DNA of 64,000 nt. Origin: Bifidobacterium sp. (GTDB lineage: Bacteria > Actinomycetota > Actinomycetes > Actinomycetales > Bifidobacteriaceae). How positions within the stretch are numbered: position 1 is the stretch's first letter; each line of letters starts with the position of its first letter. Location of the stretch: assembly GCF_022647885.1 (NCBI RefSeq), contig NZ_JALCLM010000001.1, positions 806,001 to 870,000 of the forward strand, written 5' to 3'. Under the pieces are notes generated by a model. The model did not search any database. It was not told the DNA's origin and saw nothing but the letters and a program-made list of their open reading frames with translations. The position numbers were made by a program, and so were the translations under genes. Shown here one piece after another: positions 5,801 to 62,423 of the stretch.

Positions 5801-6473
5801 AGCATTTGGCGCGTTTCTCAGACATGTGCGAATCATCGGTATCGATGAAGTTGCTGGTGCTCAAGCAAGCGATGTCATTCTGTCGCTAGGTTTCGCCAAG
5901 ACGCTACATGGCCGCTTATTGCAACAGTTCGGTGAGTTGGAAGGTCAAGGGGGTCAGGGAATGTTGCTGGATGCTTTGGCTCTGGCAAACAGAAACCTTG
6001 ATATCGTCAGCGCTTTCTCCTCGCAGGATCTTGAGGATGACCGCATTCATCAGTCAGGCCCACAGCTCTTAAAGATCCTGCTGGCATGGGCAGAGCAGCT
6101 CGATAAGAGCGCCGATGATGTACTTCCTGCAGGGCACGATTCAGGGTCAGATATTTTGCTCAGTGACCTCGCAGAACGTATTAAGGCACGCGGATTAGAG
6201 GTTGCAGTTGACTTTGGCAGAGAGCAGGGACCGAGAATTCCGCTCGTTGTCGGTATCAAAGGCAAGGCTTTCGGCTTGGCAGTGCTTACGGATAACGCTG
6301 ACTTCATGAGCGTGCAGTCAACACGAGCACGACATCGTTTCTTGACAGAAGATTTGCAGATGCTTGGTTGGTCGGTTATCACGGTGTGGAGTGTTGCTGC
6401 ATTCGTAAACCCCGAAAAAGAAGTCGATCGTATCGTTGCTCAATTGGCTCAGATGTATGGGGACTCGCAATGA
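2817..6473 (+). CDS. Large helicase-like protein with degenerate ATPase motifs and C-terminal nuclease-like domain
   Basis: A 1218-residue protein resembling the large superfamily-1 helicase/nuclease-like proteins of actinobacteria. The place where a Walker A motif is expected (about residues 298-310) reads VDEPTGKSSAQH, which keeps GKS but lacks the usual G-x4-GKT/S spacing. The Walker B-like strand at about 835-850 reads VAIIDAAAHVPSIELL, where active helicases have DEA(S/Q)-V-P. The middle is mostly helical. The last about 110 residues (VAVDFGREQG..IPLVVGIKGKAFGLAVLTD) look like the restriction-endonuclease-like domain that ends many of these proteins. It sits between an FHA protein and a 69-residue protein that overlaps its stop by 3 bp. 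I infer that ATPase activity is weak or lost; the family assignment is moderate. Confidence 0.7.
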   Translation: MSESPSTSDTETTSMPEQEQLSLDRIRKWRRTYQSGVGPTPLEDIAQLSANLDLTHAHPSGIAQLFASGQVHLDGLFRDNGMLRAANRRLERVLDDRATKERISGCAELSLIIGVAAWHGNSMPVLLYPVTIERNASSFSKSLIRFTGKVNINSALVSALRERGVDIDAKALFDTSHYEGGTPETSALFSVITSQAERVISDFTIDRKVILGCFVEPSALLMGESLQIIDDLEEGPLGNPVLDALTGESSAVEELKHQEVPDFSPFDADPHAEFDIGDVDNSVRYAAQLAAAGKSVFVDEPTGKSSAQHAAAIASRCVMNGRSVLYVPCVADQKKRFAQELRSSEMNNLMLDITEGNTNKEIDRQLINAVGFQAGSASAHFDQLADELVGVRSRLTRYLGDLHGISEQWGVSAYQTIQNLANIAALPTHPATHVRLSPQTTRSLVSTMKQWCTKLERAAELGEFTIGPDDTAWYHASLFTEDEAVSAYERVVRMLENLLPATRDQVAATVNTCGFPVPATAQDWSRQVVVLKNLRRVLDVFQPEIFERDVAAMIEASKSKAKRKTEGTSMGFWERRRHVKEAKSLLRAGAQVENLHDALVVVAKQSAQWRTLVPHGGWPVLPNRLDDIIETEEAVSRDMTALNVVLSSTPEGGDLESIGLNDVENRLRSLFEDHLALESLPERSALERDFQTMGLSELVEDLHARKVQREGVAAELQLAWWTTVFEDIVRSSAIISNQDGSALSNAAERFNQVDTEHVRSIGAMVAQESTRRLSEQLFARTQEANQLHTLLAGKHKLSLSKLRQSHPTLFAAAKPIMIATPATLAALTEPEMLTDVAIIDAAAHVPSIELLSILSRVRQVVIIAHGPTVTSEGLRALMNMLVRVPVKTRPDRRAPQLSQFLQQHGYGEIDSDPACENVRGTVSYTLVKGSGVPVMSSGLVESSQQEIDKVVEMLRHRANSFTIVPASYVLCVVTLSPAHRTRLGAELKSNAARDKAFGAFLRHVRIIGIDEVAGAQASDVILSLGFAKTLHGRLLQQFGELEGQGGQGMLLDALALANRNLDIVSAFSSQDLEDDRIHQSGPQLLKILLAWAEQLDKSADDVLPAGHDSGSDILLSDLAERIKARGLEVAVDFGREQGPRIPLVVGIKGKAFGLAVLTDNADFMSVQSTRARHRFLTEDLQMLGWSVITVWSVAAFVNPEKEVDRIVAQLAQMYGDSQ

Positions 6474-6679
6474 GCAAAGATTACGAATCCGAACCAGCGC
6501 CTAAACGTCGTATACATCATCGTGTTGTTCGTAAAGGGACTGAGCGTTTCGATGCCGATGGCGTAAAGGAAGAAGCTGCCGATATGACAACAAAAAGCGC
6601 CCAAGATGCGGATGACGATCAACGCATCTTGGGCGAGCTGCCCCCACATTGGGGTGTTTTTAGTGCTGAGAAGGAGTAA
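6470..6679 (+). CDS. Small charged protein of the FHA/helicase-like operon
   Basis: A 69-residue protein whose ATG overlaps the preceding stop (ATGA), a sign of translational coupling. It has a basic N-terminal half (PKRRIHHRVVRKGTERF), an acidic middle (DADDDQR) and the end LGELPPHWGVFSAEKE. No known domain is recognised. Its last 20 bp overlap the 3' end of the convergent mscL. Two terminator hairpins lie inside its coding sequence, so its 3' half is constrained at both RNA and protein level. The tight coupling suggests it works with the two upstream genes; function unknown. Confidence 0.65.
   Translation: MSKDYESEPAPKRRIHHRVVRKGTERFDADGVKEEAADMTTKSAQDADDDQRILGELPPHWGVFSAEKE
6592..6635 (-). 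terminator. mscL terminator inside the convergent small gene
   Basis: CGCCCAAGATGCG at 6598-6610 and its exact complement at 6623-6635 form a 13-bp stem. Read on the minus strand it is followed by GCTTTTTG, giving a good intrinsic terminator for mscL that lies within the coding sequence of the opposing gene. Confidence 0.75.
6641..6661 (+). terminator. Terminator of the FHA/helicase-like operon
   Basis: A CCCC..GGGG hairpin followed by TGTTTTT, overlapping the last codons of the 69-residue gene and the stop of mscL. The stem is short, so strength is uncertain. Confidence 0.5.
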
Positions 6680-7205
6680 ATGGCGCCGAATTACCAGGCA
6701 CTGAGTTGCCTGAAGCACCATTGTTTAGTTGGTCGCGAATCTCCTGAAGCAGGATAACTGTCTGCTCTTCAGGGCTTGGTTCGGCTGCGGAATCTTCTTC
6801 TTCGACGCCAGAGGCAGCGCGGGTCATGTCACGCAACTTATTGATTGGCAGAATAATGCAGAAGTACACTGCAGCGGCGATAATCAAGAAGTTAATGAGT
6901 TCTCCGATAATCGCGCCAAATGAGATGGTGGCGTTGTTATAGGAAATCGTCAGAAGCTTTGACATATCGGCTTTTCCAAAAATCATGGCGATTAATGGGC
7001 TGATGAATGATTTCACAATGGATGTGACTACTGCAGTTACCGCTGAGCCCATAACCACGCCGACAGCCATATCAACCATCGACCCGCGGGAAATGAATTT
7101 CTTGAACCCTCCCAAAGGTCCCTTGTCTGTCAGAGCTGAAAGCTGATGAGAGGCGTTGAGCGCTCTATCAGTCATACGATGTGCTGAATTGCTCGATGAA
7201 GCCAT
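6660..7205 (-). CDS. mscL: Large-conductance mechanosensitive channel
   Basis: A 181-residue inner-membrane channel that opens under membrane tension to release solutes during hypo-osmotic shock. An N-terminal extension of about 30 residues precedes the family signature GGFKKFISRGSMVDMAVGVV. TM1 (about 45-70) carries the small-residue lining and TM2 lies at about 100-125 (LINFLIIAAAVYFCII). The C-terminal bundle is long and Pro/Ser/Asn-rich (PSPEEQTVILLQEIRDQL). A GAAGGAGCAAT site precedes the ATG at 7205. It is the last gene of a minus-strand run and collides with the end of the helicase-like operon. Confidence 0.96.
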   Translation of the reverse strand: MASSSNSAHRMTDRALNASHQLSALTDKGPLGGFKKFISRGSMVDMAVGVVMGSAVTAVVTSIVKSFISPLIAMIFGKADMSKLLTISYNNATISFGAIIGELINFLIIAAAVYFCIILPINKLRDMTRAASGVEEEDSAAEPSPEEQTVILLQEIRDQLNNGASGNSVPGNSAPFTPSQH

Positions 7206-7318
7206 TATTGCTCCTTCTACGACGAGATCGCCGTGTTAAAAAATGAATCCCACTTTCTTATTATGGCCGACTGTGCAAATTTTGTGTGTTGAATCGCTCA
7301 AACATGATGAAACTCACG

Positions 7319-8005
7319 TTACTGGATATCTACGGCTAGGATAGGCCCTTCTTGTTGTCGGGCAATGATGGCCAACGCTTCTTGAGGTGACAACACAAAC
7401 TCGACAGCGTTATAGCTCGGATTATCTGTGGAAACCGATGAGAATAAGCCAGAATCCTCCTCGTCTTTGCTGATGTTCAGCACTTGGGCATCTTCACTGA
7501 GAGTGCATAAGCTTGCTTCTTCGCCATGATCTGATTCGGTACAACTCCCAGAAGTGACCAATGTAACGTGGTCGCCAGGATGTAAATCACTGGGGATACT
7601 TGCCAGATTGACTCTGAGTTTTGTGAGCCCATTGGGGGTTTCAACACTCGTGGTGACTGCATTACGATATATCGCCTGCCCTCGAGAAATTTCAGTGCGA
7701 GCAATCAGATTCTCCACCTCGCCAACTGTGGTGAAGGCCTGACGAAACACATCGCTTTGTGGTGCTTGGATGAGTTGGAGAGATGACTGTTTCAGGGCAT
7801 CGCCCTGCTGAATATCACTGCTCGCAACAACCAGTGGACTAGTGTCAGAGGCGATTGAGGAAAGGTACTGCATTAACGTGAAGAGGCTGAGGGATGCCAG
7901 CATAGCGCAAGCCAATCTTCTGGCTTGGTAACGAATGCGACGGTGTTTCAAACTGTCTGTCAGTGGCAAATCATTATGGCGTAGTTGAAAGTTCATCATG
8001 GACAC
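7319..8005 (-). CDS. SAF-domain exported protein (CpaB/FlgA-like)
   Basis: A 228-residue protein with one N-terminal membrane anchor (about 31-50, LACAMLASLSLFTLMQYL), basic residues on its inner side, and the rest outside the membrane. Residues about 57-120 form a SAF domain (VVASSDIQQGDAL, ISRGQAIYRNAV). The remainder resembles CpaB/RcpC proteins of Flp/Tad pilus assembly (GDHVTLVT). No tad genes are visible nearby. The start could be the ATG at 8005 or one of two just downstream. It follows the FmdB gene on the same strand with a 253-bp gap that holds nothing obvious. Pilus involvement is only inferred from family. Confidence 0.75.
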   Translation of the reverse strand: MSMMNFQLRHNDLPLTDSLKHRRIRYQARRLACAMLASLSLFTLMQYLSSIASDTSPLVVASSDIQQGDALKQSSLQLIQAPQSDVFRQAFTTVGEVENLIARTEISRGQAIYRNAVTTSVETPNGLTKLRVNLASIPSDLHPGDHVTLVTSGSCTESDHGEEASLCTLSEDAQVLNISKDEEDSGLFSSVSTDNPSYNAVEFVLSPQEALAIIARQQEGPILAVDIQ

Positions 8006-8258
8006 AGATTGCCGTATTCCATACTCGCCAATGGCCAGTTGAACTAGTTGTGGTCGAATGACTACTTATACACAGGCAAACCAAGCACCAACAGCAGTAA
8101 TGAGAAAGGGCGCACAATAAGGTGTTCAGAGTTAAACCACGCCACACGTGAAATGCCCCGTTACACGATGTTCTATGCACAGTGTTCTCGAAACCGCATG
8201 CTAGTGCACAAGCGAACAGTCTCTAGCAGTTGATGAGGTGAGGAGGAATGTAGGCAAC

Positions 8259-8456
8259 TTACTTCTTTGAACTGCTTGAACCACCATCAGTTCGATAAAA
8301 ACCGTGACCTTTGAACTCGATGGGTACTGCAGAAAACACCTTACGCACTTGCTCCTCGCCACAACGAGGGCATACAGTGATGGGCTGGTCGTCGAATGAC
8401 TGATATTGCGTGAAGTCATACTGGCAGCTTTTGCAACGGTAATGGTAGGTAGGCAC
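8259..8456 (-). CDS. FmdB-family zinc-ribbon protein
   Basis: A 65-residue protein with the FmdB pattern: MPTYHYRCKSCQYDF at the start, then CPRCG, giving two CxxC pairs for one zinc ion, then the conserved VPIEFKGHGFYRTD and a Ser/Lys tail. The family is widespread and was first noted as a putative regulator; its biochemical role is not settled. It lies 82 bp downstream of the folate ligase gene on the same strand, a common actinobacterial neighbourhood. Confidence 0.92.
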   Translation of the reverse strand: MPTYHYRCKSCQYDFTQYQSFDDQPITVCPRCGEEQVRKVFSAVPIEFKGHGFYRTDGGSSSSKK

Positions 8457-8538
8457 CGCTTCTGTCCTTCGTTCAAGTTCAACAATCGTTAGGGGTTGCG
8501 CTCATGGTAAGTGTTGTCCCCAACACCGTATTATTGCA

Positions 8539-9204
8539 CTACTTCTTGTCGTATGACTTGTTAGAGGCTAGCAGCGTGAAAGATTCGGGTGTTAATACAG
8601 CATCCATTCGGACATCATGATCTTGTGAAGGTACTACGTCTGATCGAAACTCCCAAGGCCAACATACCGCAACAGTTAGTGCAGTTTTGCGACGATGTGT
8701 TAATGCTTCGTCGTACCAAGCAGCACCACGTCCCAAGCGATTGCCGCTGGAATCAACAGCTAGAGCTGGGACAAAGATGACTTCAGCGCCCTGCACAGAC
8801 TCAGGAGGTAGTAAGTCTGTTTCTGGTTCTTGAGGTCTGTGAGAGCCCATATTGTGCATGGTGGCAACGTCGTCCAGAACTCCCCACAACACGTCACGAC
8901 CCGCACCGAGACGTGGCACTAAGACACGCTTCTGTTGGCTGAGCAGAGTGGCGAGCAGAGGAAATGTAGATATTTCTGTACCCATAGAGACATAGGCGGC
9001 GACAGTGTTGGCAGTGGTGATTAATGAGGAGTGCATCACGCGATTGGCCAAGCTCGTGCCTGCCTCGAGACACTGTTCGGCGCTGAGTTTGGACCGAATT
9101 GCCAGAGCTGCAATTCGTGCTCGCTGTTTGTCCGCTTGTACTTGCTTCTTCTGCACGTGGTCTTTTCCTATGTGGTCATCTGATGCACTGAGTTGAGATC
9201 TCAT
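8539..9204 (-). CDS. 5-formyltetrahydrofolate cyclo-ligase
   Basis: A 221-residue enzyme that converts 5-formyl-THF and ATP to 5,10-methenyl-THF, salvaging a stored folate. Seen are the N-terminal Lys/Arg-rich helix (KQRARIAALAIRSKL), the substrate segment MGTEISTFPLL, PPESVQGAEVIFVPALAVD, and the phosphate loop GRGAAWYDEAL, a variant of the usual G-(R/K)-G-x-G-(F/Y)-YD. The start at 9204 gives an N-terminal extension of about 20 residues, so a downstream start is possible. It is divergent from the RimJ-like gene, with 95 bp for both promoters. Confidence 0.92.
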   Translation of the reverse strand: MRSQLSASDDHIGKDHVQKKQVQADKQRARIAALAIRSKLSAEQCLEAGTSLANRVMHSSLITTANTVAAYVSMGTEISTFPLLATLLSQQKRVLVPRLGAGRDVLWGVLDDVATMHNMGSHRPQEPETDLLPPESVQGAEVIFVPALAVDSSGNRLGRGAAWYDEALTHRRKTALTVAVCWPWEFRSDVVPSQDHDVRMDAVLTPESFTLLASNKSYDKK

Positions 9205-9299
9205 ACCTTCGTTCTACCAGAAGATAGAGCAGCAGCACTTGGTCCGTGCTCTAATATCCTTGAGCCTCGCGCTAATGCAAATGATGCGACAATAAAGGT

Positions 9300-9953
9300 A
9301 TGTCCGTGTTTCAATCGTTGAAGTCGGTGTTGCAGCTCCACCCCAGTGATGTGGCTCTGCGCATTCCTGACGAGATTAATGCTCCTGCAGGGGTTGAGCC
9401 CTTGAGTTTGCAACGCCTAACCCTTGAGGATCAGGTGGAGTGGAATGATGTCCGTTGGCGTAACAGCGAATGGCTAAAACCTTGGGAATCTGGTGACCCA
9501 ATGCAGGGGCCGAGTATGAGCTTTGCTCAGTGGGTGCACAAGGAGAAGCAGAGTGAAGAAGCCGGCAATGGCGTGGTATTCCTGATGAAGTATCGCGGAC
9601 AGATTGTTGGACAACTCTCAATTGGGGCAATTACCTATGGTTCTATGCGCACAGCGACTTTAGGGTACTGGATAGATGAACGATGGGCAGGTCATGGATT
9701 TACTCCTTTAGCCGTGGCAATGGCTAGTGATTGGGCAATACTCGATCCGCAAGGTCCTCAACTGCATCGCATTGAGATTGCCATCCTGCCCGAAAATCAG
9801 CGTTCAAAGAGGGTTGTAGAAAAACTGCAGCTTCGCTACGAAGGTTTACGCACGAAATATATGTTCATCAATGGTGTTTGGAGAGACCATGAGGTGTATG
9901 TACTGATGCCAGAAGACATACAAGAACCCTTAATACAACGACTACAAAGCTAA
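9300..9953 (+). CDS. GNAT-family N-acetyltransferase (RimJ/RimL type)
   Basis: A 217-residue acetyl-CoA-dependent acetyltransferase of the type that modifies protein N-termini, including ribosomal proteins. GNAT motifs are visible: GQLSIGAITYGSMRTATLGYW (shortened: the GQLSIG strand and GYWIDERWAGHGF for CoA binding), then HRIEIAILPENQRSKRVVEKL. The fthC-RimJ neighbourhood is usual in actinobacteria, although the galU/moeA genes often found there are absent. The ribosome site is weak (AAAGG very close to the ATG). The substrate cannot be told from sequence. Confidence 0.88.
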   Translation: MSVFQSLKSVLQLHPSDVALRIPDEINAPAGVEPLSLQRLTLEDQVEWNDVRWRNSEWLKPWESGDPMQGPSMSFAQWVHKEKQSEEAGNGVVFLMKYRGQIVGQLSIGAITYGSMRTATLGYWIDERWAGHGFTPLAVAMASDWAILDPQGPQLHRIEIAILPENQRSKRVVEKLQLRYEGLRTKYMFINGVWRDHEVYVLMPEDIQEPLIQRLQS

Positions 9954-10008
9954 GATAATTGCCGACACACCATGTAAATCTTTTCATTCCGCACTTCTCT
10001 CAACTATC

Positions 10009-11376
10009 GTGGGGCGTATGGATTACGATTCACTGAGCAGCGTTGTGCTGGCAGTGATGGCCGCGGTCCTTGTTCTGGGGTGGTTGCCAAGACGCACCAA
10101 AAGAGGCATGAAGCGAGCATCAGAGCACCGTGAAGACCGGTTCTCACCTTCGCTGCATATAGTTGATGCGAACAATGCGACCCTGTTCAGCGATGAGGGC
10201 GTGCAACAAACGAAAGGTTTGTCCATGGAGTCACAGCAGCAACGACACGATTCCGCGTTCTCGCAGAAGCGAGTTGCCCACATCAGAATGATGAGGCGGC
10301 AAGCGGTTCGTAGGCGACAGATTCTTGTTGCCTCGCTGCTGGTGATTACTGCTGTGGTCGTTTTGTTGGCTGTGTCGATGCAGTTCAGTCCACTGTTCGC
10401 CTGTATTCCTGCGGCTCTTGCTGTTCTCGCGCTTGTGCTAGGTGCCAAGGCATCGCGTGATGCACGGCGTTGGGAGCAGGAACTTTCTGCAGCCACCACT
10501 AAGCATGTGGTGAAAGCCGTGCAAGGTACCCGCGCAGATAATCGTAATAATCAGCTTAATCAGCATGCCGAGGGTGAAGGATTGGGGTACCAGAGACAGT
10601 CCAAGGAAGAGGAACGTCCTCAAGCTGTGTATATGACTGTTGATGAACTTGATGATTTGGCTTCTCGCAGCGCTGCTGATGAAGATGAGAGTGCAACTAA
10701 TGTGCTTGCAGCTAGTGAGGTGCACGAGGTACTGCGTCAAGCGCAGCAAGACAAGCAGCGTGCTTTAGCGAAGCGTGAGCATCAAGCAGAGAATAGTCGA
10801 CCTGCTGATGTCAAGGCTAGCGAATCACATCAGACAGCTTCGTCTCAGCAAGGCAAACAACACAGCAAACCCAGCCAGAAGAGTGATACTCGTCCGTCAA
10901 CTGGTTCAACGTCTTCCAATGAGGCTGGTGTTGCTCAACGACAGACCCCGCTGATGCCTCAAGCTCAAGAGCTCCCAGATGCCACCAATGAACTCAAACG
11001 AATATCACCTTCTCCTGTGTTAGATGCTTTTGAGATGGCCGCATCGCAGGATTTGATTTCCTTCTCACTAGGAGAAGCAAGAAGCAGTGTTGCTGCAACA
11101 CCTGCAGAGGCAGAAAGCCTCGAAATCAAGTCTGTACGCCAGGTTTCCAAAGCTGTGCCTAAAGCTGCGCCCAAAACGGTGCAGGCCCCAGCATCAACTT
11201 CACTAACGCATGATTCGCATGAAGACTCATCCCAGGATTCGGCTGATAAGTCAACAACGGACGTTAAACACTTCCACGATAGTGAAACTCAAGCAGAAGT
11301 TGATGCACCGGAGCAGACTTCTGACTCACTAGGTGTAAATATCGAATCGATTCTTGCCCGCAGAAGTCAATCCTGA
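10009..11376 (+). CDS. Hypothetical membrane protein with long disordered tail
   Basis: A 455-residue protein not recognised as a named family. A first membrane segment lies at about residues 8-25 (VVLAVMAAVLVLGWL) and a hairpin of two at about 103-147 (ILVASLLVITAVVVLLAV and FACIPAALAVLALVLGA). The remaining 300 residues are polar, rich in Ser, Gln, Ala, Glu and Lys, probably cytoplasmic and disordered. The start may be the GTG at 10009 or the ATG at 10018. It lies between the acetyltransferase and the glycosidase-like gene on the same strand. The hydrophobic arrangement is clear; function is unknown. Confidence 0.75.
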   Translation: MGRMDYDSLSSVVLAVMAAVLVLGWLPRRTKRGMKRASEHREDRFSPSLHIVDANNATLFSDEGVQQTKGLSMESQQQRHDSAFSQKRVAHIRMMRRQAVRRRQILVASLLVITAVVVLLAVSMQFSPLFACIPAALAVLALVLGAKASRDARRWEQELSAATTKHVVKAVQGTRADNRNNQLNQHAEGEGLGYQRQSKEEERPQAVYMTVDELDDLASRSAADEDESATNVLAASEVHEVLRQAQQDKQRALAKREHQAENSRPADVKASESHQTASSQQGKQHSKPSQKSDTRPSTGSTSSNEAGVAQRQTPLMPQAQELPDATNELKRISPSPVLDAFEMAASQDLISFSLGEARSSVAATPAEAESLEIKSVRQVSKAVPKAAPKTVQAPASTSLTHDSHEDSSQDSADKSTTDVKHFHDSETQAEVDAPEQTSDSLGVNIESILARRSQS

Positions 11377-20583: not shown

Positions 20584-20698
20584 CGTTTGTGTAGGGATTA
20601 TTGGAGTAATCAGCAGTATGCCTTCGTTACAAATACCGTCATTCCGCCATTTCTGCTCTCTGCCAAGGATGATGTATTTCCTAATCCCTACACAAACG
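20584..20698. repeat. F1 dispersed palindromic element, copy 2
   Basis: A 115-bp element with perfect 17-bp terminal inverted repeats (CGTTTGTGTAGGGATTA and its complement). The core is on the minus strand: ATTCCGCCATT at 20641-20651, the complement of the copy 1 core. It sits in the 469-bp gap between the transsulfuration gene and hisC. The rest of the gap shows only a small CTGGCAC/GTGCCAG hairpin near 20517-20538 and the hisC promoter region. Confidence 0.9.
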
Positions 20699-25555: not shown

Positions 25556-25640
25556 AGGTCCCTACGTAACGCAACCTTCCCAAAATTCGGGCGAAGTGTT
25601 CGGTTGCTTAGACCGAAGGTTTCGAAGATTTACAGCAAAC

Positions 25641-25717
25641 CGAGATAACTGCATCAAAAGGACAGCAAAATCGTGAAAAATACTCCAAAAAGCTGTACTT
25701 TTGAAGCAGTTATCTCG
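25641..25717. repeat. F3 dispersed palindrome, copy 1
   Basis: CGAGATAACTGC at the left end and GCAGTTATCTCG at the right enclose CAAAAGGACAGC / GCTGTACTTTTG. It is a 77-bp imperfect palindrome 77 bp upstream of nrdF. Related copies are at 35731, 60210 and 62207. Confidence 0.88.
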
Positions 25718-25751
25718 TATTGAGGTTTTAAGACATAATCCGTGCGCATAG

Positions 25752-35418: not shown

Positions 35419-35488
35419 CGAAACTGTGCATAACGGCGCGCGACACGCTGAAAAAATCGTGTTTACCGTGTCACAATGCACAGTTTCG
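35419..35488. repeat. F2 dispersed palindrome, copy 1 (single)
   Basis: CGAAACTGTGCA at the left and TGCACAGTTTCG at the right, with inner ACACG / CGTGT. A 70-bp palindrome between dinB and tRNA-Ser; the only F2 copy in the window not in or next to a pair. Confidence 0.85.
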
Positions 35489-35563: not shown

Positions 35564-35650
35564 GGAGACGTGCCTGAGTGGCCGAAAGGGGCACCCTGCT
35601 AAGGTGTTGATCACGCAAGTGGTCCAGGAGTTCGAATCTCCTCGTCTCCG
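35564..35650 (+). tRNA. tRNA-Ser (GCT)
   Basis: Acceptor GGAGACG/CGTCTCC, anticodon GCT at 35598-35600 in loop CTGCTAA, and a long variable arm (GTTGATCACGCAAGTGGTC region) typical of tRNA-Ser. T arm GGAGTTCGAATCTCC. CCA is not encoded. Confidence 0.95.
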
Positions 35651-35663
35651 CGGTAATTACAAG

Positions 35664-35702
35664 AATCCCGACAGTGCTTTGTGCACTCGTTGGGATTTTT
35701 TG
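35664..35702 (+). terminator. tRNA-Ser terminator
   Basis: AATCCCGACAGTGC pairs with GCACTCGTTGGGATT (one bulge), followed by TTTT. Intrinsic terminator just after the tRNA. Confidence 0.9.
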
Positions 35703-35730
35703 TATGAGATTCCGTTGACATCCTTACAAC

Positions 35731-35806
35731 ATAGATAACTTGATCAACAATGCAGCTATTTTCCGACAGTGCTTTGAATAGTTGCACTACTGATCCAGTT
35801 ATCTAT
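35731..35806. repeat. F3 dispersed palindrome, copy 2
   Basis: ATAGATAACT..GATCA at the left and TGATCCAGTTATCTAT at the right, with inner TGCAGCTATT / AATAGTTGCA. A 76-bp degenerate F3 member between the tRNA-Ser terminator and the DUF4391 gene. Confidence 0.8.
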
Positions 35807-35919
35807 GAGAGTCTGCCCAGCGCGATGTGATTGCGAATCAGATACCACCCAGCCATAAAGGATAGGATGGAGTCACCTCTTGCAGATCCTTCGCAATCCT
35901 CGAACAAGGCAGGTAGACT

Positions 35920-36655: not shown

Positions 36656-36759
36656 CGTTTGTGTAGGGATTTGAAAGTATCGACGAGTATGCGCCCTTGG
36701 AAATTCAACGATTTCGCGTGCCGATAGATGCTTTCTTCCAGAAAATCCCTACACAAACG
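36656..36759. repeat. F1 dispersed palindromic element, copy 3
   Basis: A 104-bp element with perfect 17-bp terminal inverted repeats (CGTTTGTGTAGGGATTT and its complement). The core is degenerate: ATTTCGC at 36711-36717, on the minus strand as in copies 2 and 4. Confidence 0.9.
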
Positions 36760-43342: not shown

Positions 43343-43444
43343 CGTTTGTGTAGGGATTTTTATCTATTCCCTAACTATCCATAGCCAGATTTCGCCATTT
43401 TTCAGTCATTGTACTTGCTGAACGCACAATAATCCCTACACAAT
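43343..43444. repeat. F1 dispersed palindromic element, copy 4
   Basis: CGTTTGTGTAGGGATT at the left and AATCCCTACACAA at the right (the outer 3 bases of the right arm have drifted). The minus-strand core ATTTCGCCATT at 43389-43399 is exactly central. It lies in the 634-bp gap between the rpsI terminator and adhE; the rest of that gap holds only the adhE control region. Confidence 0.87.
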
Positions 43445-43723: not shown

Positions 43724-46471
43724 GTGGTTACAGCCAAGAAGAGCACAACAGTAAATACAGCAGCGACGAATAAAGTGTCTGCTGTTGCTTCTGAATCGTC
43801 TGATGCTGAGCGTGAGGTTGATACGCTGGTTTCTCGTGGTTTGGTGGCTTTAAAGAAGTTTGAGGGTTTGAATCAGGAGCAGGTTGATCGTATTGTGGCG
43901 AAGGCTTCGATTGCGGCGTTGAATCAGCATTTAGTGCTGGCGAAGTTGGCTGTTGAGGAGACTGGTCGTGGTTTGGTTGAGGATAAGGCCACGAAGAATA
44001 TTTTTGCGTGTGAGCATGTGACGAATCACTTGGTCAAGCAGCGCACGGTGGGTGTGATTAGTGAGGATGATATTAACGGTATTGTCGAGGTTGCTGAGCC
44101 GGTTGGTGTGGTTGCTGGTGTGACTCCGGTAACGAATCCCACGTCGACGGCTATTTTTAAGTCGTTGATTGCGTTGAAGACGCGTTGTCCTATTGTGTTT
44201 GGTTTTCATCCTTTTGCGCAGAAGTGTTCGGTGGCGGCTGCTCGTGTGGTTCGTGATGCGGCTATTGCTGCTGGTGCTCCTGAGGATTGTATTCAGTGGG
44301 TTGAGCATCCCTCGATTGAAGCGACTGGTGCGTTGATGAAGCATCCAGGGATCGCGACGATTTTAGCGACTGGTGGTCCTGGCATGGTGAAGGCTGCGTA
44401 TTCTTCAGGTAAGCCAGCGTTGGGTGTGGGTGCAGGTAATGCTCCAGCGTATGTGGATCGGCATGTGAATGTGAAGCGTGCGGTGAATGATTTGATTCTC
44501 TCGAAGCATTTTGATTACGGGATGATTTGTGCCACGGAGCAGGCCATTATTGCTCATACTGATATTTATGATCGTCTTCTTGCCGAGATGAAGCACCGCA
44601 AGGCGTATTTCGTGTCTGGTGAGGAGAAGGCGAAGCTCGAACAGTATATGTTCGGATGTACGTCGTATTCCGGGGAGAAGCCGAAGTTGAATTCGGTGGT
44701 TCCTGGTAAGTCTCCGCAGTATATTGCCCAGCATGCTGGGTTCTCGATTCCCTCTGATGCCACGATTCTTGCTGCTGAGTGTAAAGAAGTTGGCGAGATG
44801 GAGCCGTTGACGATGGAGAAGCTCGCGCCTGTGCAGGCGTTGTTGAAGGCTAAGGACAAGGATCACGCTTTCGTGATGTGTGAGCAGATGTTGGTGCATG
44901 GTGCCGGGCATACTGCTGCGATTCATACGGATGATGAGGAACTGGTACGTGAGTATGGGTTGCGGATGCATGCGTGTCGTATTATCTGGAATCAGCCGAG
45001 CTCGCTGGGTGGTATTGGTGATATTTACAATGCTATTGCTCCGTCCCTGACCTTGGGTTGTGGTTCGTATGGTGGTAATTCAGTGTCGGGTAACGTGCAG
45101 GCGGTGAACCTGATTAACGTGAAGCGTATCGCTCGGAGGAATAATAATATGCAGTGGTTTAAGATTCCCTCGAAAACCTATTTCGAAGCGAATGCTGTGC
45201 GCTACCTGCGTGATATGTATGGTATTCGTAAGGCCGTGATTGTGTGTGACAAAGTCATGGAACAGCTCGGTATCGTGGATAAGGTTATTGACCAGTTACG
45301 TGCTCGTCCTGAACTCGTGACCTTCCGTATTATTGATTATGTTGAGCCCGAGCCTAGCGTGGAAACGGTAGAGCGTGGCGCGAAAATGATGCGTGAAGAG
45401 TTCGAACCCGACACGATTATCGCGGTTGGTGGTGGTAGCCCGATGGACGCCGCGAAGATTATGTGGCTGCTCTACGAGCACCCCGAAATTTCGTTTGCTG
45501 ATGTGCGTGAGAAGTTCTTCGATATTCGTAAGCGTGCGTTCAAGATTCCTCCACTGGGTACCAAGGCCAAGCTGGTGTGTATCCCTACCTCCTCGGGTAC
45601 GGGCTCCGAGGTCACGCCTTTCGCGGTGATTACTGATCATAAGACCGGATACAAGTATCCGATTACTGATTACGCGCTTACCCCATCGGTAGCGATTGTG
45701 GATCCGGTGTTGGCTCGTACCCAGCCTCGTCGACTCGCGTCGGATGCAGGTTTTGACGCACTCACCCACACGTTTGAGGCCTACGCGTCGGTGTACGCGA
45801 ACGATTTCACTGACGCGATGGCCCTGCATGGAGCCAAGCTCGTGTGGGATAACCTTGATAACGCGGTCAACGCGCAAGACCCTGAAACCAGGAAAGCTGC
45901 ACAAGAGAAAATGCATAACGCTGCCACTATGGCTGGTATGGCCTTCGGCTCCGCGTTCTTGGGTATGTGTCACGCGATGGCCCACACCATCGGTGCTCTA
46001 TGTCATATCGCTCACGGGCGTACCAACTCGATCCTGCTACCCTACGTGATTCGCTACAACGCTGAGATCCCTGAAGAGCCCACGAGCTGGCCTAAGTACA
46101 GTGAATACATCGCTGCTGAACGCTACCAAGACCTTGCCCACAACCTCGGACTCAAGTGTGATACCCCCCAGATCGCGGTTGAAGCGTTAGCCACCGCAGT
46201 TGAAGACTATCGTGATAACAGGCTCGGTATGGACCCCACGTTCCAGGCCGCTGGCGTGGACGAAGACTACTTCTGGAGTGTGCTCGACCAGATCGGTATG
46301 CGCGCCTACGAAGACCAATGCGCGCCTGCTAATCCACGCATCCCACAAATCGAGGACATGAAAGACATCGCTATCGCTGCTTACTACGGCATCAGCCAAG
46401 AAGCAGCACACGCTAAACGTGTGGAACGCGAAGGCGCCAACGCCACCGAAGAAGCCTCCGAGCGCGCCTAA
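43724..46471 (+). CDS. adhE: Bifunctional acetaldehyde-CoA / alcohol dehydrogenase
   Basis: A 915-residue enzyme reducing acetyl-CoA to acetaldehyde and then ethanol, which reoxidises NADH in bifidobacterial fermentation. The start is the GTG at 43724 behind AAGGAGGA (spacing only 3). The N-terminal aldehyde dehydrogenase half has ATGGPGMVKAAYSSGKP and the catalytic Cys in FDYGMICATEQAI. The C-terminal iron-type alcohol dehydrogenase half has GGGSPMDAAKIMWLL and metal-binding His residues in HAMAHTIGALCHIAHGR. AdhE forms spirosomes. A redox-type operator lies about 105 bp upstream and an F2 pair follows. Confidence 0.97.
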   Translation: MVTAKKSTTVNTAATNKVSAVASESSDAEREVDTLVSRGLVALKKFEGLNQEQVDRIVAKASIAALNQHLVLAKLAVEETGRGLVEDKATKNIFACEHVTNHLVKQRTVGVISEDDINGIVEVAEPVGVVAGVTPVTNPTSTAIFKSLIALKTRCPIVFGFHPFAQKCSVAAARVVRDAAIAAGAPEDCIQWVEHPSIEATGALMKHPGIATILATGGPGMVKAAYSSGKPALGVGAGNAPAYVDRHVNVKRAVNDLILSKHFDYGMICATEQAIIAHTDIYDRLLAEMKHRKAYFVSGEEKAKLEQYMFGCTSYSGEKPKLNSVVPGKSPQYIAQHAGFSIPSDATILAAECKEVGEMEPLTMEKLAPVQALLKAKDKDHAFVMCEQMLVHGAGHTAAIHTDDEELVREYGLRMHACRIIWNQPSSLGGIGDIYNAIAPSLTLGCGSYGGNSVSGNVQAVNLINVKRIARRNNNMQWFKIPSKTYFEANAVRYLRDMYGIRKAVIVCDKVMEQLGIVDKVIDQLRARPELVTFRIIDYVEPEPSVETVERGAKMMREEFEPDTIIAVGGGSPMDAAKIMWLLYEHPEISFADVREKFFDIRKRAFKIPPLGTKAKLVCIPTSSGTGSEVTPFAVITDHKTGYKYPITDYALTPSVAIVDPVLARTQPRRLASDAGFDALTHTFEAYASVYANDFTDAMALHGAKLVWDNLDNAVNAQDPETRKAAQEKMHNAATMAGMAFGSAFLGMCHAMAHTIGALCHIAHGRTNSILLPYVIRYNAEIPEEPTSWPKYSEYIAAERYQDLAHNLGLKCDTPQIAVEALATAVEDYRDNRLGMDPTFQAAGVDEDYFWSVLDQIGMRAYEDQCAPANPRIPQIEDMKDIAIAAYYGISQEAAHAKRVEREGANATEEASERA

Positions 46472-46491
46472 AGTAGCAAACAGTAAACACC

Positions 46492-46555
46492 AACTGTGCA
46501 GATAAGCACGGGCAGCAGGCAAAACGGCCTCTCACCCGTGCTTATCTGCACAGTT
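46492..46555. repeat. F2 dispersed palindrome, copy 2 (pair A, left)
   Basis: AACTGTGCAGATAAGCACGGG at 46492-46512 (21 bases, written here as AACTGTGCAG then ATAAGCACGGG) is matched perfectly by its complement at 46535-46555. It starts 20 bp after the adhE stop. Confidence 0.92.
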
Positions 46556-46585
46556 TCATATCCCGCAGCACTTGCCCCATCCAGT

Positions 46586-46649
46586 AACTGTGCATGAATC
46601 CACGCGAAGCGCGACACCGGCGTCGCCTCACGTGCCTTCATGCACAGTT
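46586..46649. repeat. F2 dispersed palindrome, copy 3 (pair A, right)
   Basis: AACTGTGCATGAA and its complement TTCATGCACAGTT close a 64-bp element with inner CACG / CGTG. It lies 30 bp after copy 2 and 76 bp before the nuclease-fold gene. Confidence 0.9.
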
Positions 46650-46725
46650 CCAGCACCAATCTCACATTCATGCACATGGTCTTCCCTGGATTTGTGCCGG
46701 GAGCCCGCTGCTTCATGATTGCAGT

Positions 46726-47715
46726 ATGAGAGAAAAATCCCAGTTGACACAAGCATTTCTACGTTCAGAGGAAGCAGGCCATTGCTTGGTTGCGACTGAT
46801 CGCAATTCACAGGTATCACTGCACCGTAGACTCGAAACGGGGGATGTACTTACTCCTTTTCCTCGAATGTTTGTGCGAACATGCTATTGGTCTCGTTTGA
46901 GCTATAGCGAAAAAGGCTGGCATATCCTTCGCTCTTTGGTGCTGCTGCATCCAAATTGGACTTTCTGTGCAGCTACAGCGGCTTGGGTGTGGGGCATCAC
47001 GGAATCCTATGCATTGTTGGATCGGATTTTTGTGACCACGATGTGCGAATCTCATGTGTGTGCTAAGGGACGTGTTCAAAGAGTACTCATACGTAAAGGT
47101 TTAGATGAACGTTACACATTGCGTTCCGGAATCCAGGTGACTTTGCCCGAGAGGACAATCTTCGATTGCGCAAGATTCTTACCTTTCCATGATTCTCTGG
47201 CTATTTGTGACGCCGCGTTGCGAAATCAGCTGTGCGAAGTGGATGAGATGGCGGAGTATTTGCGTGGCATGGCTCGTCACCGCCGCTGGAAGCGAGCGTT
47301 GAGGGTGTGGCTGCATGCAGATGGTCGTGCCGAGAATGGCGGAGAATCAATGGCACGAGCGAGAATAATTGAACTTGGCTTTGCAATCCCCGATTTGCAG
47401 GTACCCTTTGAAGATCCTGTCAATCATCGTGAATACCGGGTTGACTTCCTCTGGACGTGCGCAGATGGGCATCAGATTATCGGCGAATTCGATGGTATGC
47501 AGAAGTACACGGATCCAGAGTTGAGGGGAGGGCGATCCGTTGAGCAAGTGCTTCGTGATGAGAGAAGGCGAGAATCGCGATTATCTATCAAGAATGTAGC
47601 GATTATGCGTTTTGACTACAGCGAGGTGTGTGATCCGATCCGTTTTGCCAAACTACTGACTCAATTTGGTGTTCCCCGAGCTGCTTCCACTCATGCGCAG
47701 CCTGGTGAGTTGTGA
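46726..47715 (+). CDS. AbiEi-like protein with C-terminal endonuclease-like fold
   Basis: A 329-residue protein. The N-terminal part (VSLHRRLETGDVLTPFPRMF and THELVR-like IFVTTMCESHVCAKGR) resembles the AbiEi/type IV antitoxin winged-helix family common in bifidobacteria. The C-terminal part (EYRVDFLWTCADGHQIIGEFDG, then Lys-Tyr, E..L..E.RRES) has the layout of a PD-(D/E)xK fold with D, E and K in order. Such proteins are often left as hypothetical. No AbiEii-like toxin is adjacent. An F2 pair lies on each side, and its stop codon overlaps the right-hand pair. Function is inferred only from family. Confidence 0.6.
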   Translation: MREKSQLTQAFLRSEEAGHCLVATDRNSQVSLHRRLETGDVLTPFPRMFVRTCYWSRLSYSEKGWHILRSLVLLHPNWTFCAATAAWVWGITESYALLDRIFVTTMCESHVCAKGRVQRVLIRKGLDERYTLRSGIQVTLPERTIFDCARFLPFHDSLAICDAALRNQLCEVDEMAEYLRGMARHRRWKRALRVWLHADGRAENGGESMARARIIELGFAIPDLQVPFEDPVNHREYRVDFLWTCADGHQIIGEFDGMQKYTDPELRGGRSVEQVLRDERRRESRLSIKNVAIMRFDYSEVCDPIRFAKLLTQFGVPRAASTHAQPGEL

Positions 47716-47781
47716 AACTGTGCAAACAAGCATGCTATGTATCGGATTTGACTCTCCTAACGTGCCTTCGTGCACAGTTTC
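47714..47781. repeat. F2 dispersed palindrome, copy 4 (pair B, left)
   Basis: GAAACTGTGCA and TGCACAGTTTC close a 68-bp element. Its first two bases are the last two of the stop codon of the nuclease-fold gene. Confidence 0.88.
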
Positions 47782-47796
47782 AGCATTCATGATGGC

Positions 47797-47863
47797 GAAC
47801 TGTGTGAATACGCACGCTGAGGAGCAAATTTCACCTCTTTAGCGTGCTGATACGCACAGTTTC
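47797..47863. repeat. F2 dispersed palindrome, copy 5 (pair B, right)
   Basis: GAACTGTGTGAATACGCACGCT and AGCGTGCTGATACGCACAGTTTC (each cut here to its key part: GAACTGTG, CGCACGCT, AGCGTGC, CACAGTTTC) form a 67-bp palindrome 15 bp after copy 4. Beyond it, 47864-48153 is the leader of the S10 operon with no gene, holding a CTCGC/GCGAG hairpin near 47953-47983. Confidence 0.88.
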
Positions 47864-48153
47864 AGCTCGACTATTGGAACGGCATCCGTGCGACACGCGC
47901 GGATTCCTCCAGGGCCCTCGTGTGCTTTAATAGAGAAGTTGCCTGTTTTGGGCTCGCACTTTGTAATTAAAAAAAGCGAGCGCGGCACAAGGAGCGCATA
48001 ACAGCTTTTCTTGTATGGTCGCGCATTGATGTGGTCGGTTAGACGGCTTATCGCCTGTAATAGGGCGTGTTGCTAGATAACCGCCTTGCGTTAGTGCCCT
48101 CTAGGAACAGGCTGGTAAACAGTATCTAAATCGCTAGGAAAGGGCGGACGGCA

Positions 48154-59431: not shown

Positions 59432-59500
59432 GAAACTGTGCAATACAACACGCAACACTCTGCGTATGGCGGGGCTTAACGTGTCTCCTTGCACAGTTTC
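59432..59500. repeat. F2 dispersed palindrome, copy 6 (pair C, left)
   Basis: GAAACTGTGCAA and TTGCACAGTTTC close a 69-bp element with inner ACACG / CGTGT, 25 bp after the secY stop. Confidence 0.88.
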
Positions 59501-59514
59501 TCTGTATTCACCCG

Positions 59515-59582
59515 GAAACTGTGAAAGTAAACACGCGAAGAGCGAGATTTACGCACGCGAACGTGCTTACTTGCACAATTTC
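59515..59582. repeat. F2 dispersed palindrome, copy 7 (pair C, right)
   Basis: GAAACTGTGAAAGTAAACACG and CGTGCTTACTTGCACAATTTC (key parts GAAACTGTG, AACACG, CGTGCTT, CACAATTTC) form a 68-bp element 14 bp after copy 6, upstream of adk. Confidence 0.85.
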
Positions 59583-59634
59583 GAGGTGGAGGAGTAATAC
59601 TTCACGGTATATATTGACAGCAAAGGATCACGCA

Positions 59635-60192
59635 ATGAGATTATTGATTATGGGACCGCAGGGAGTCGGCAAGGGCACTCAGGCTGAGTTGTTAGCCAAG
59701 CATTTTGACATCCCAGCCATTTCTACCGGTGATATCTTCCGTTACAACTTGAAGAACAGCACCCCACTCGGACTAGAAGCAAAGAAGTTCATGAATAAGG
59801 GCCTGCTTGTCCCTGATGAACTGACGAATAACATCGTGAAAGATCGTCTGGCTCAAGAAGATGTAGCCAAGGGTTGGATTCTTGACGGGTACCCACGAAA
59901 TGCCGAGCAGGTTGAAGCGCTCGATGCCATACTTGAAGAGCTCGGCACACCTCTAGACGCTGCGGTCGCACTGACAGCAGACCGTCCAGTACTGATGGAG
60001 CGTATGACCAAGCGCGCTGAAATTGAAGCTCGTGCAGATGACACCCCAGAAGCCATTGCTAAGCGTCTTGATGTGTATGAACACGAGACTGCGCCTATCC
60101 TCGATATCTACCGTAACCGCGGAAAACTTGTTGAGGTTGACGGTGTTGGTGAAATCGCTGAAATATCCGCGACAATCATCAGCAAACTCTGA
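59635..60192 (+). CDS. adk: Adenylate kinase
   Basis: A 185-residue short-form (actinobacterial) adenylate kinase that keeps ATP, ADP and AMP in balance. P-loop LLIMGPQGVGKGTQAELLAK, AMP-binding STGDIFRYNLKNSTPLG, GWILDGYPRNAEQVEAL and the lid RAEIEARADDTPEAIAKRLD lacking the zinc domain. Start set by AAAGGAT 7 bp upstream. In many actinobacteria map and infA follow at once; here a block of other DNA intervenes. Confidence 0.97.
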   Translation: MRLLIMGPQGVGKGTQAELLAKHFDIPAISTGDIFRYNLKNSTPLGLEAKKFMNKGLLVPDELTNNIVKDRLAQEDVAKGWILDGYPRNAEQVEALDAILEELGTPLDAAVALTADRPVLMERMTKRAEIEARADDTPEAIAKRLDVYEHETAPILDIYRNRGKLVEVDGVGEIAEISATIISKL

Positions 60193-60209: not shown

Positions 60210-60282
60210 AGATAACTGCAATAAAAGTGCAGATATTCAGACGAATTGTCGTCGAATATCTGCACTTTTATTGCAGTTATCT
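60210..60282. repeat. F3 dispersed palindrome, copy 3
   Basis: A 29-bp perfect stem (60210-60238 with 60254-60282) whose ends are AGATAACTGCAATAAAAG and CTTTTATTGCAGTTATCT. The loop itself can pair GACGA/TCGTC. It lies 18 bp after adk. Confidence 0.93.
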
Positions 60283-61637: not shown

Positions 61638-62186
61638 ATGGCAATGTTTCCAGCTTTGATGAATGATTCAATTTTTAGTGATCTCTTTGATGATCCGTTC
61701 TTCGCGGGATGGCGTGGTTCTCGTGGCAATACCACGGCGAATGTAAGCCCTGACAACTCTGCGCTTGCACCAATGCTTAGTGCTGAACTTATGAGCACGG
61801 ACGTGAAGGATAACGGAGACTCATACGATGTTGACATTGATATGCCAGGTTTTGACAAGGACAATATTAAGGTTCAATTCGACAATGGCTATCTGACAGT
61901 ATCTGCCCGTCGCGAGGAAAACCATAGCGCAGGCAACGAGGGCGCCGCGGACGGCGCAAAGGCAGATGACTCCGAGAAGAGTGGCACGCAAGATTCTACA
62001 AAAGGTGGCAAGTGGTTGCGTCGTGAACGTTATGTCGGTTCATGCTCTCGCAGCTTCTATGTCGGCTCAGATGTAAAAGAGTCGGACATTCACGCCAAGT
62101 ATCAAAATGGCACACTATGCCTGCAAGTTCCTAAGAACGTTACTCCACAGGTTGAGCAGTCCCACACAATAGCTATCGAAAGCTGA
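61638..62186 (+). CDS. hsp20: Small heat-shock protein, Hsp20/alpha-crystallin family
   Basis: A 182-residue chaperone that holds unfolding proteins in a soluble state. The start at 61638 follows AAGGAG by 9 bp. The N-terminal arm (MAMFPALMNDSIFSDLFDDP) precedes the alpha-crystallin domain: YDVDIDMPGFDKDNIKVQFD, GYLTVSARREE and RSFYVGSDVKESDIHAKYQN with GTLCLQVPK. A Ser/Asp/Lys-rich insertion (about 100-130) lengthens the middle loop. Followed by F3 copy 4. Expected to be HspR-controlled. Confidence 0.95.
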   Translation: MAMFPALMNDSIFSDLFDDPFFAGWRGSRGNTTANVSPDNSALAPMLSAELMSTDVKDNGDSYDVDIDMPGFDKDNIKVQFDNGYLTVSARREENHSAGNEGAADGAKADDSEKSGTQDSTKGGKWLRRERYVGSCSRSFYVGSDVKESDIHAKYQNGTLCLQVPKNVTPQVEQSHTIAIES

Positions 62187-62206
62187 GCAATTCACTTCAA
62201 TTAACA

Positions 62207-62275
62207 ATAACTGCATCAAAAGGGCAGCTTTTGGCATGGAAATCCCACCAAAAGCTGCCCTTTTGATGCAGTTAT
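62207..62275. repeat. F3 dispersed palindrome, copy 4
   Basis: A perfect 28-bp stem (62207-62234 with 62248-62275), ends ATAACTGCATCAAAAGGG and CCCTTTTGATGCAGTTAT, loop of 13 bases. It starts 20 bp after the hsp20 stop. Confidence 0.93.
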
Positions 62276-62423
62276 CCCATTTCCCCGCGCTAGAGCTGGG
62301 GGTAACTTTCGCGACACGCCAATAAAGCCCTTATAGCACATATCCGACATGACTGCTATATTTGCAATTTGGTGTGTCTTCGGACATAACAGTGTAATAC
62401 GTCCAAAGAACGGAATGAGGCTC

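Follow-up and report, generated by a model that had tools for sequence, protein, structure and literature searches.

The stretch of Bifidobacterium DNA analysed here, a window of 64,000 nucleotides, contains four palindromes with related outer ends and diverse inner arms, and the question they raise is what keeps the two arms of such an element complementary while their letters change. Paired changes in a stem are usually taken to prove that an RNA hairpin is under selection. The original prediction proposed either such selection or arm-to-arm correction of the DNA, and held that the palindrome rather than its sequence is being preserved.

Palindromes of the window

The four copies and their neighbouring genes are as follows.

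60211..60281, no strand: family copy, 29-bp perfect arms 60210-60238/60254-60282, 3' of the adenylate kinase gene
62207..62275, no strand: family copy, 28-bp perfect arms 62207-62234/62248-62275, 3' of the Hsp20 gene
25644..25714, no strand: family copy lying between two ribonucleotide reductase genes, one for the large and one for the small subunit
35734..35803, no strand: degenerate family copy, 3' of a tRNA
59521..60192, + strand: adenylate kinase gene (Pfam PF00406, E 2.3e-48), upstream of the 60211 copy
61638..62186, + strand: Hsp20 gene (Pfam PF00011, E 8.7e-20), upstream of the 62207 copy
35564..35650, + strand: tRNA (Rfam RF00005, 53.4 bits), upstream of the 35734 copy

Arm alignment and comparison of the folds with shuffled sequence bore out all four palindromes, including the two perfect stems of 29 and 28 bp. 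The arms of the other two are imperfect, with 87% pairing over 31 positions at 25636-25722 and 84% over 31 at 35730-35807. The predicted RNA folds of the four copies reach -53.0, -51.5, -34.1, and -32.9 kcal/mol, and for each copy none of 200 dinucleotide shuffles was equally stable. The motif GATAACTGC is found 5 times in the window against 0.52 expected (0/100 shuffles reaching 5). The outer ends, described originally as shared, are so only in part: the end motif GATAACTGCATCAAAAG fits the copy at 25.6 kb, while the copy at 62.2 kb is without the leading G, that at 60.2 kb has GCAATAAAAG instead, and that at 35.7 kb has the ends GATAACTTG/CCAGTTATC. In the Rfam scan of the window the palindromes had no match, and only four tRNAs exceeded the threshold. 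Between the tRNA and the 35.7 kb copy a second, terminator-like hairpin with a T-run is visible by eye (approximately 35663-35702).

Counterparts of the window copies are present in related genomes. For the 60211 copy these are L046 in the genome of a sister species (G016) and L039 in B. psychraerophilum (G024), in which the adenylate kinase gene is followed by a palindrome as in the window; for the 62207 copy these are L152 (G016), L048 (B. psychraerophilum), and L073 (B. aquikefiri, G005). Palindromes starting with ATAACTG lie at the Hsp20 gene end of B. aquikefiri (E 9.1e-5) and B. psychraerophilum (E 0.0013), with different inner arms. The nearest named record of the window Hsp20 protein is B. 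psychraerophilum LMG 21775 (75%), very near records being possibly outside the search. The ortholog of the 25644 copy is L175, with a loop identity of 0.76.

Size and distribution of the family

The four window copies are members of a dispersed genome-wide family. Elements with the exact ends ATAACTGCA..TGCAGTTAT number 15 in the 2.34-Mb Bifidobacterium genome to which the window belongs (G000) and 103 in G016, and none was found in the other 25 of the 27 genus genomes searched. A covariance model built on 20 copies matched G000 at 45 places, G005 at one, and G024 at two, and gave at least 150 matches in G016 with both strands counted. A second model, built on older-looking copies and itself including three G024 copies and one G005 copy, gave 11 matches in G024 (both strands counted) and one in G005. 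With stricter filters at 1e-4, matches in 189 genomes of the bacterial family were confined to G000, G016, and G162.

The sets collected for further analysis comprise 42 copies from G000, outside which stand the weak places 581649, 1012589, and 1690356, and 72 from G016, which do not include L036 (G005) and L039 (G024); the G016 copies are mostly the best model matches, so that consensus-like arms are favoured among them. Copy length is 69 bp in 37/42 and 67/72 copies, respectively, and 67–70 bp in the rest; one 67-bp copy also stands in the G016 list of exact ends. When other end spacings up to 108 bp were allowed in four genomes, none was found in G000 and one overlapping case in G016. At L150 of G016 (approximately 1450-1494) an intact copy is accompanied by an older, broken arm (GGTAACTGCATCAACAGGACAGC).

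Several further palindrome families were observed. The second family, TTTGTGTAGGGATT..AATCCCTACACA, is located in the window at 898-1007, 20586-20694, 36658-36755, and 43345-43442; it occupies 56 places in G000 and 34 in G016, with no match to the pattern in G005 or G024, and its lengths are only 88, 97–99, or 108–110 bp although 86–114 bp were allowed, that is, steps of about one DNA helical turn. The third family, AACTGTGCA..TGCACAGTT, is 64-65 bp long, with inner arms that vary yet largely pair, and lies in the window at 35422-35485, 46492-46555, 46586-46649, 47716-47779, 47798-47861, and 59434-59498; 18 copies were found in G000, 14 in G016, and none with the exact pattern in G005 or G024. 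At the gene end at 46471 (window 46469-47879) G000 carries copies of this AACTGTGCA family and G016 a copy of the present family (L184). In addition, a 12-kb locus of B. ramosum (L116, approximately 5390-10932) contains ten palindromes of a different family, nine of 46 bp and one of 48 bp, with arms like ACGGACATACAGCCGATT and several spacings of 107–113 bp.

Position at gene ends

The gene caller was trained on the window and misses genes in G016; position was therefore judged by open frames of at least 100 codons ending within 60 bp and pointing at the copy. Such a frame was present for 36/42 G000 copies against 11% of control positions and for 57/72 G016 copies against 23%, and frames ended on both sides of the copy in 16/42 (control 0.4%) and 26/72 (control 1.4%), respectively. 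Six of the 42 and 15 of the 72 copies have no gene end within 60 bp. The gene caller placed two of the 42 G000 copies inside a frame and none between divergent genes; of 74 other copies (L036 and L039 included), two came out as divergent. The orthologs L124 and L173 apparently both lie between divergent genes, L173 being classed so and L124 being classed inside a frame. In G016 seven copies (L017, L149, L163, L171, L191, L194, and L195) stand approximately 26 bp past the stop of diverged pilin-like genes, a call based on translations of all seven genes and a Pfam check of two of them.

An A4 tract on the left and a T4 tract on the right surround the inner stem in 26/42 G000 and 66/72 G016 copies, the T-run being placed inside the long stem. 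A scan with the terminator consensus at 52-64 kb gave 10 sites against 10.6 in shuffles, one of which (60260-60276) falls within a copy. The gene-end position together with the A/T tracts suggests, with moderate confidence as far as sequence can indicate, that the copies are most likely bidirectional intrinsic terminators or mRNA 3'-end hairpins. On either strand the inner stem would often be followed by a T-run, with which the A-tract could pair, and termination would then be possible in both directions.

Covariation of the stems within genomes

Of the stem cells in 20 copies (17 from G000 and 3 from G016), 94.2% are paired, compared with 85.2% after shuffling, and both-sided changes occur in 38 cells against 13.2. 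Arm covariation is evident in this sample, and the inner arms indeed differ between copies while remaining complementary. In G000, where arms are diverse (0.64 identity), pairing lies far above the column expectation at many inner positions, among them offsets 8 (0.90 against 0.40), 9 (0.93 against 0.42), and 21 (0.79 against 0.35), and is no better than expected from offset 22 further in. The columns of G016 are less informative because of the high uniformity of its arms, and its pairing at offsets 22-23 falls short of expectation (0.32 against 0.53). Variation in the outer 8 bp is nearly absent, the few exceptions being paired. Thus, the statement that the palindrome and not the sequence is kept was right as to the covariation, which is real, and falls short as to the outer 8 bp, which are almost fixed, and the inner arms, which lean to a consensus.

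The mismatches in copies classed beside one gene end are 15 G-U, 15 A-C, and 22 other among 1357 pairs, and in the remaining copies 11 G-U, 19 A-C, and 19 other among 1265 pairs, a classing that depends on the gene caller that misses G016 genes. G-U is not commoner than A-C, and selection on one RNA strand is thereby unsupported; use of both strands would blunt this test.

Orthologous copies in two species

For half of the G000 copies (21/42) a G016 copy in the corresponding position served as partner, 12 of the partners being fetched by the model and 9 by synteny (one of the latter, L123/L203, by one flank only). The 12 were kept out of 20 candidates; four of the eight omitted pairs were re-added as weaker pairs (window 35734/L189, L027/L041, L031/L146, and L006/L038), and the other four are second partners of already paired copies or a copy beside an inserted gene. 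Among the 462 stem positions of the 21 pairs 342 are the same; 80 differ in both arms and form Watson-Crick pairs in each genome, 8 differ in both arms without being Watson-Crick in both genomes, and 32 differ on one side only (19 restoring and 13 breaking the pair). The both-sided changes, 88 in total, compare with 56.1 (sd 3.0, largest 66) after redealing of the right-arm changes. These data show that the arms remain complementary over long divergence through paired changes, and with 80 double Watson-Crick against 32 one-sided changes the possibility, raised at the outset, that perfect stems are merely young does not hold.

The loops retain some memory of their locus, with 0.495 identity between orthologs against 0.419 with shuffled partners (8/20000) in the 21 pairs and 0.481 against 0.419 (12/20000) after addition of the four weaker pairs, most of the signal stemming from about four pairs. 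For the arms the locus signal is weak (0.660 against 0.637, 414/20000), and the first 12 pairs alone have none (0.670 against 0.671). In the 4 pairs with loop identity of at least 0.76 the changed letters are 17/100 in loops and 26/176 in arms, and 11 both-sided and 4 one-sided changes were found where the loop rate would predict 0.85 and 24.8.

The probable history of the family is vertical inheritance at numerous sites together with amplification in two Bifidobacterium genomes. Where both flanks and a short gap could be matched in G016, a copy was present at 9 places and absent at 4, namely between the flanks matching G000 L130, L131, L132, and L139; a one-flank search of G016 gave no copy for L001, L128, and L129. 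L009, L134, and L140 do not enter these counts. The distances from stop to copy mostly agree between orthologs, so the fixed length may merely reflect the rarity of indels.

The age of the copies is also evident within G016, where 12 copies share a duplicated 39-nt upstream flank, with identities of 0.60 in flank, 0.60 in loop, and 0.94 in arms, which indicates stems that are maintained and not young. Fourteen flanks in fact reached 19/39 letters, two of them in 68-bp copies that were left out, and two shared flanks at 19/39 barely exceed the background of 18. Youth of the copies was therefore rejected, given diverged flanks and orthologs in a sister species with stems largely intact.

Arm consensus of each genome

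In the 21 pairs 69/80 of the double changes equal the G016 consensus, which was built from G016 copies including the paired ones; with the four weaker pairs, each of whose 19 double changes likewise reaches the consensus, the total rises to 88 of 99. The clearest case is L026/L185, where loop identity is 0.88 and each of five double-changed stem pairs has taken the consensus state. In the 12 model-fetched pairs arm identity is 0.907 within G016, 0.709 within G000, 0.655 between orthologs, and 0.653 between non-orthologs; in the 9 synteny pairs the values are 0.709, 0.645, 0.667, and 0.604, respectively, and ACAG is present in 12/18 G016 arms against 3/18 G000 arms. Model matching favours consensus-like arms, and in the synteny pairs the dialect is weaker yet present. 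These comparisons show a separate consensus for each of the two genomes, towards which the inner arm letters tend, while the loops drift with some locus memory.

Local RNA compensation or arm-to-arm correction is insufficient here, and something also equalises the arms genome-wide: neither local cause predicts dozens of old hairpins tending, within each genome, to a common arm sequence, so that homogenisation between copies or a common binder is needed. The either/or originally offered accounts for the paired changes and is incomplete, since neither cause alone predicts a species consensus.

Explanations of the stem pattern

According to these facts the joint reading, held with somewhat better than even confidence, is one dispersed family of approximately 69-bp gene-end hairpins, old, likely acting as bidirectional terminators, with stems that change in pairs and dialects specific to each genome. 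It is a tentative proposal, given a little under an even chance, that the stems of these hairpins evolve in concert in this Bifidobacterium clade, with a genome-wide process rewriting both arms to the dialect and leaving the loops in place. Template switching at the palindrome may transfer a change from one arm to the other, and different copies may be brought to similar arms through recombination or through selection exerted by a shared binding factor; the concerted route would consist of recombination between arms of about 24 bp with arm-to-arm copying, or of a co-evolving arm-binding factor.

The strongest alternative, unlikely in itself, is plain RNA-hairpin selection at each locus, the elements being ordinary intrinsic terminators with compensatory stem pairs, as reported in Bacillus cereus (PMC5381666). 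The gene-end position, the A/T tracts, the very stable folds, and the excess of double over single changes agree with it; however, local compensation does not predict that 69 of 80 doubles hit the genome consensus, and G-U is the most frequent intermediate in B. cereus (PMC5381666), while it is not in excess here.

It is quite unlikely that a hypothetical sequence-specific protein, such as a roadblock terminator or a nucleoid factor, recognises the arms as paired DNA sites and that the dialect tracks this protein. The nearly fixed outer 8 bp, the 69-bp length of 37/42 and 67/72 copies, and the reverse partner found for 21/21 forward GATAACTGCRNTAAAAG matches in G000 would suit such a protein, but the arms of G000, at 0.64 identity, would be rather variable for a single binder, and the fixed length may be no more than a sign of rare indels. 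For six GATAACTGCRNTAAAAG sites of G016, among the matches listed, there is no exact partner; five of these sites belong to copies detected in other ways, and the sixth lies at C1:351120.

DNA arm-to-arm correction alone, by template switching at the quasi-palindrome and without RNA selection, is considered very unlikely. This mechanism has been published for hairpins (PMC8794818), and both-sided changes with few intermediates, the missing G-U excess, and half-changed elements such as L220 fit it, but it predicts locus-specific letters and not a shared dialect, and leaves the gene-end position unexplained. A MITE- or REPIN-like miniature mobile element with simply recent copies is highly improbable, since in spite of the 103 exact-ended G016 copies, the duplicated flanks in 12 G016 copies, and site gain or loss at L130, L131, L132, and L139, the copies are old, no Y1 (IS200/REP-type) transposase was found in the 27 genus genomes, and target duplication was not evident by eye in the flanks inspected.

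Three further candidates were rejected: a REP/RAYT system, as Y1 transposase was found in 0/27 genus genomes by a search that was positive in 5/14 control genomes; an uptake sequence (DUS/USS), as the arms are paired in 21/21 G000 matches of the 17-letter pattern GATAACTGCRNTAAAAG; and a carrier transposon in G016, as the ORF that recurs ahead of seven copies resembles a pilin. Viral contigs gave no exact match to the derived arm type, and plasmids nothing similar to window 62160-62300 at E 1e-5.

In summary, the elements look like ordinary transcription stop signals, among which a genome-wide coordination of stems is unusual. The paired changes are accompanied by concordant loci, and G-U mismatches are not in excess; the family thus lends itself naturally to testing how large the DNA-level share in stem covariation is, and whether very short bacterial repeats can undergo concerted evolution.

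Comparison with known systems

Literature searches covered palindromic repeats in bifidobacteria, this species group, intergenic repeats that evolve in concert, and compensatory changes in terminators or dispersed repeats; among the titles listed none dealt with this family. The terminator stems of B. cereus and B. breve are not known to be related between loci. Like the present elements, the bidirectional terminators of B. cereus (PMC5381666) and B. breve (PMC5746004) are gene-end stem-loops with an A-tract before, a T-tract after, and paired stem changes; unlike them, the present family comprises one stem family at 45 to more than 100 loci, with a genome-wide consensus and no G-U excess.

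The inverted DUS pairs of Neisseriaceae (PMC3630211) are likewise short, inverted, terminator-linked sequences with species dialects; there intragenic positions are common, while the arms of the present family come in pairs. The REP/REPIN elements with RAYT (PMC3733652) resemble the family as dispersed intergenic palindromes, often downstream of genes, with conserved arms and a variable spacer, and differ from it in that the family has no Y1 transposase and no common GTAG tag by eye, and has sites common to species. Finally, template switching at quasi-palindromes (PMC8794818) similarly produces paired changes without intermediates; alone it would not be expected to make different loci alike.
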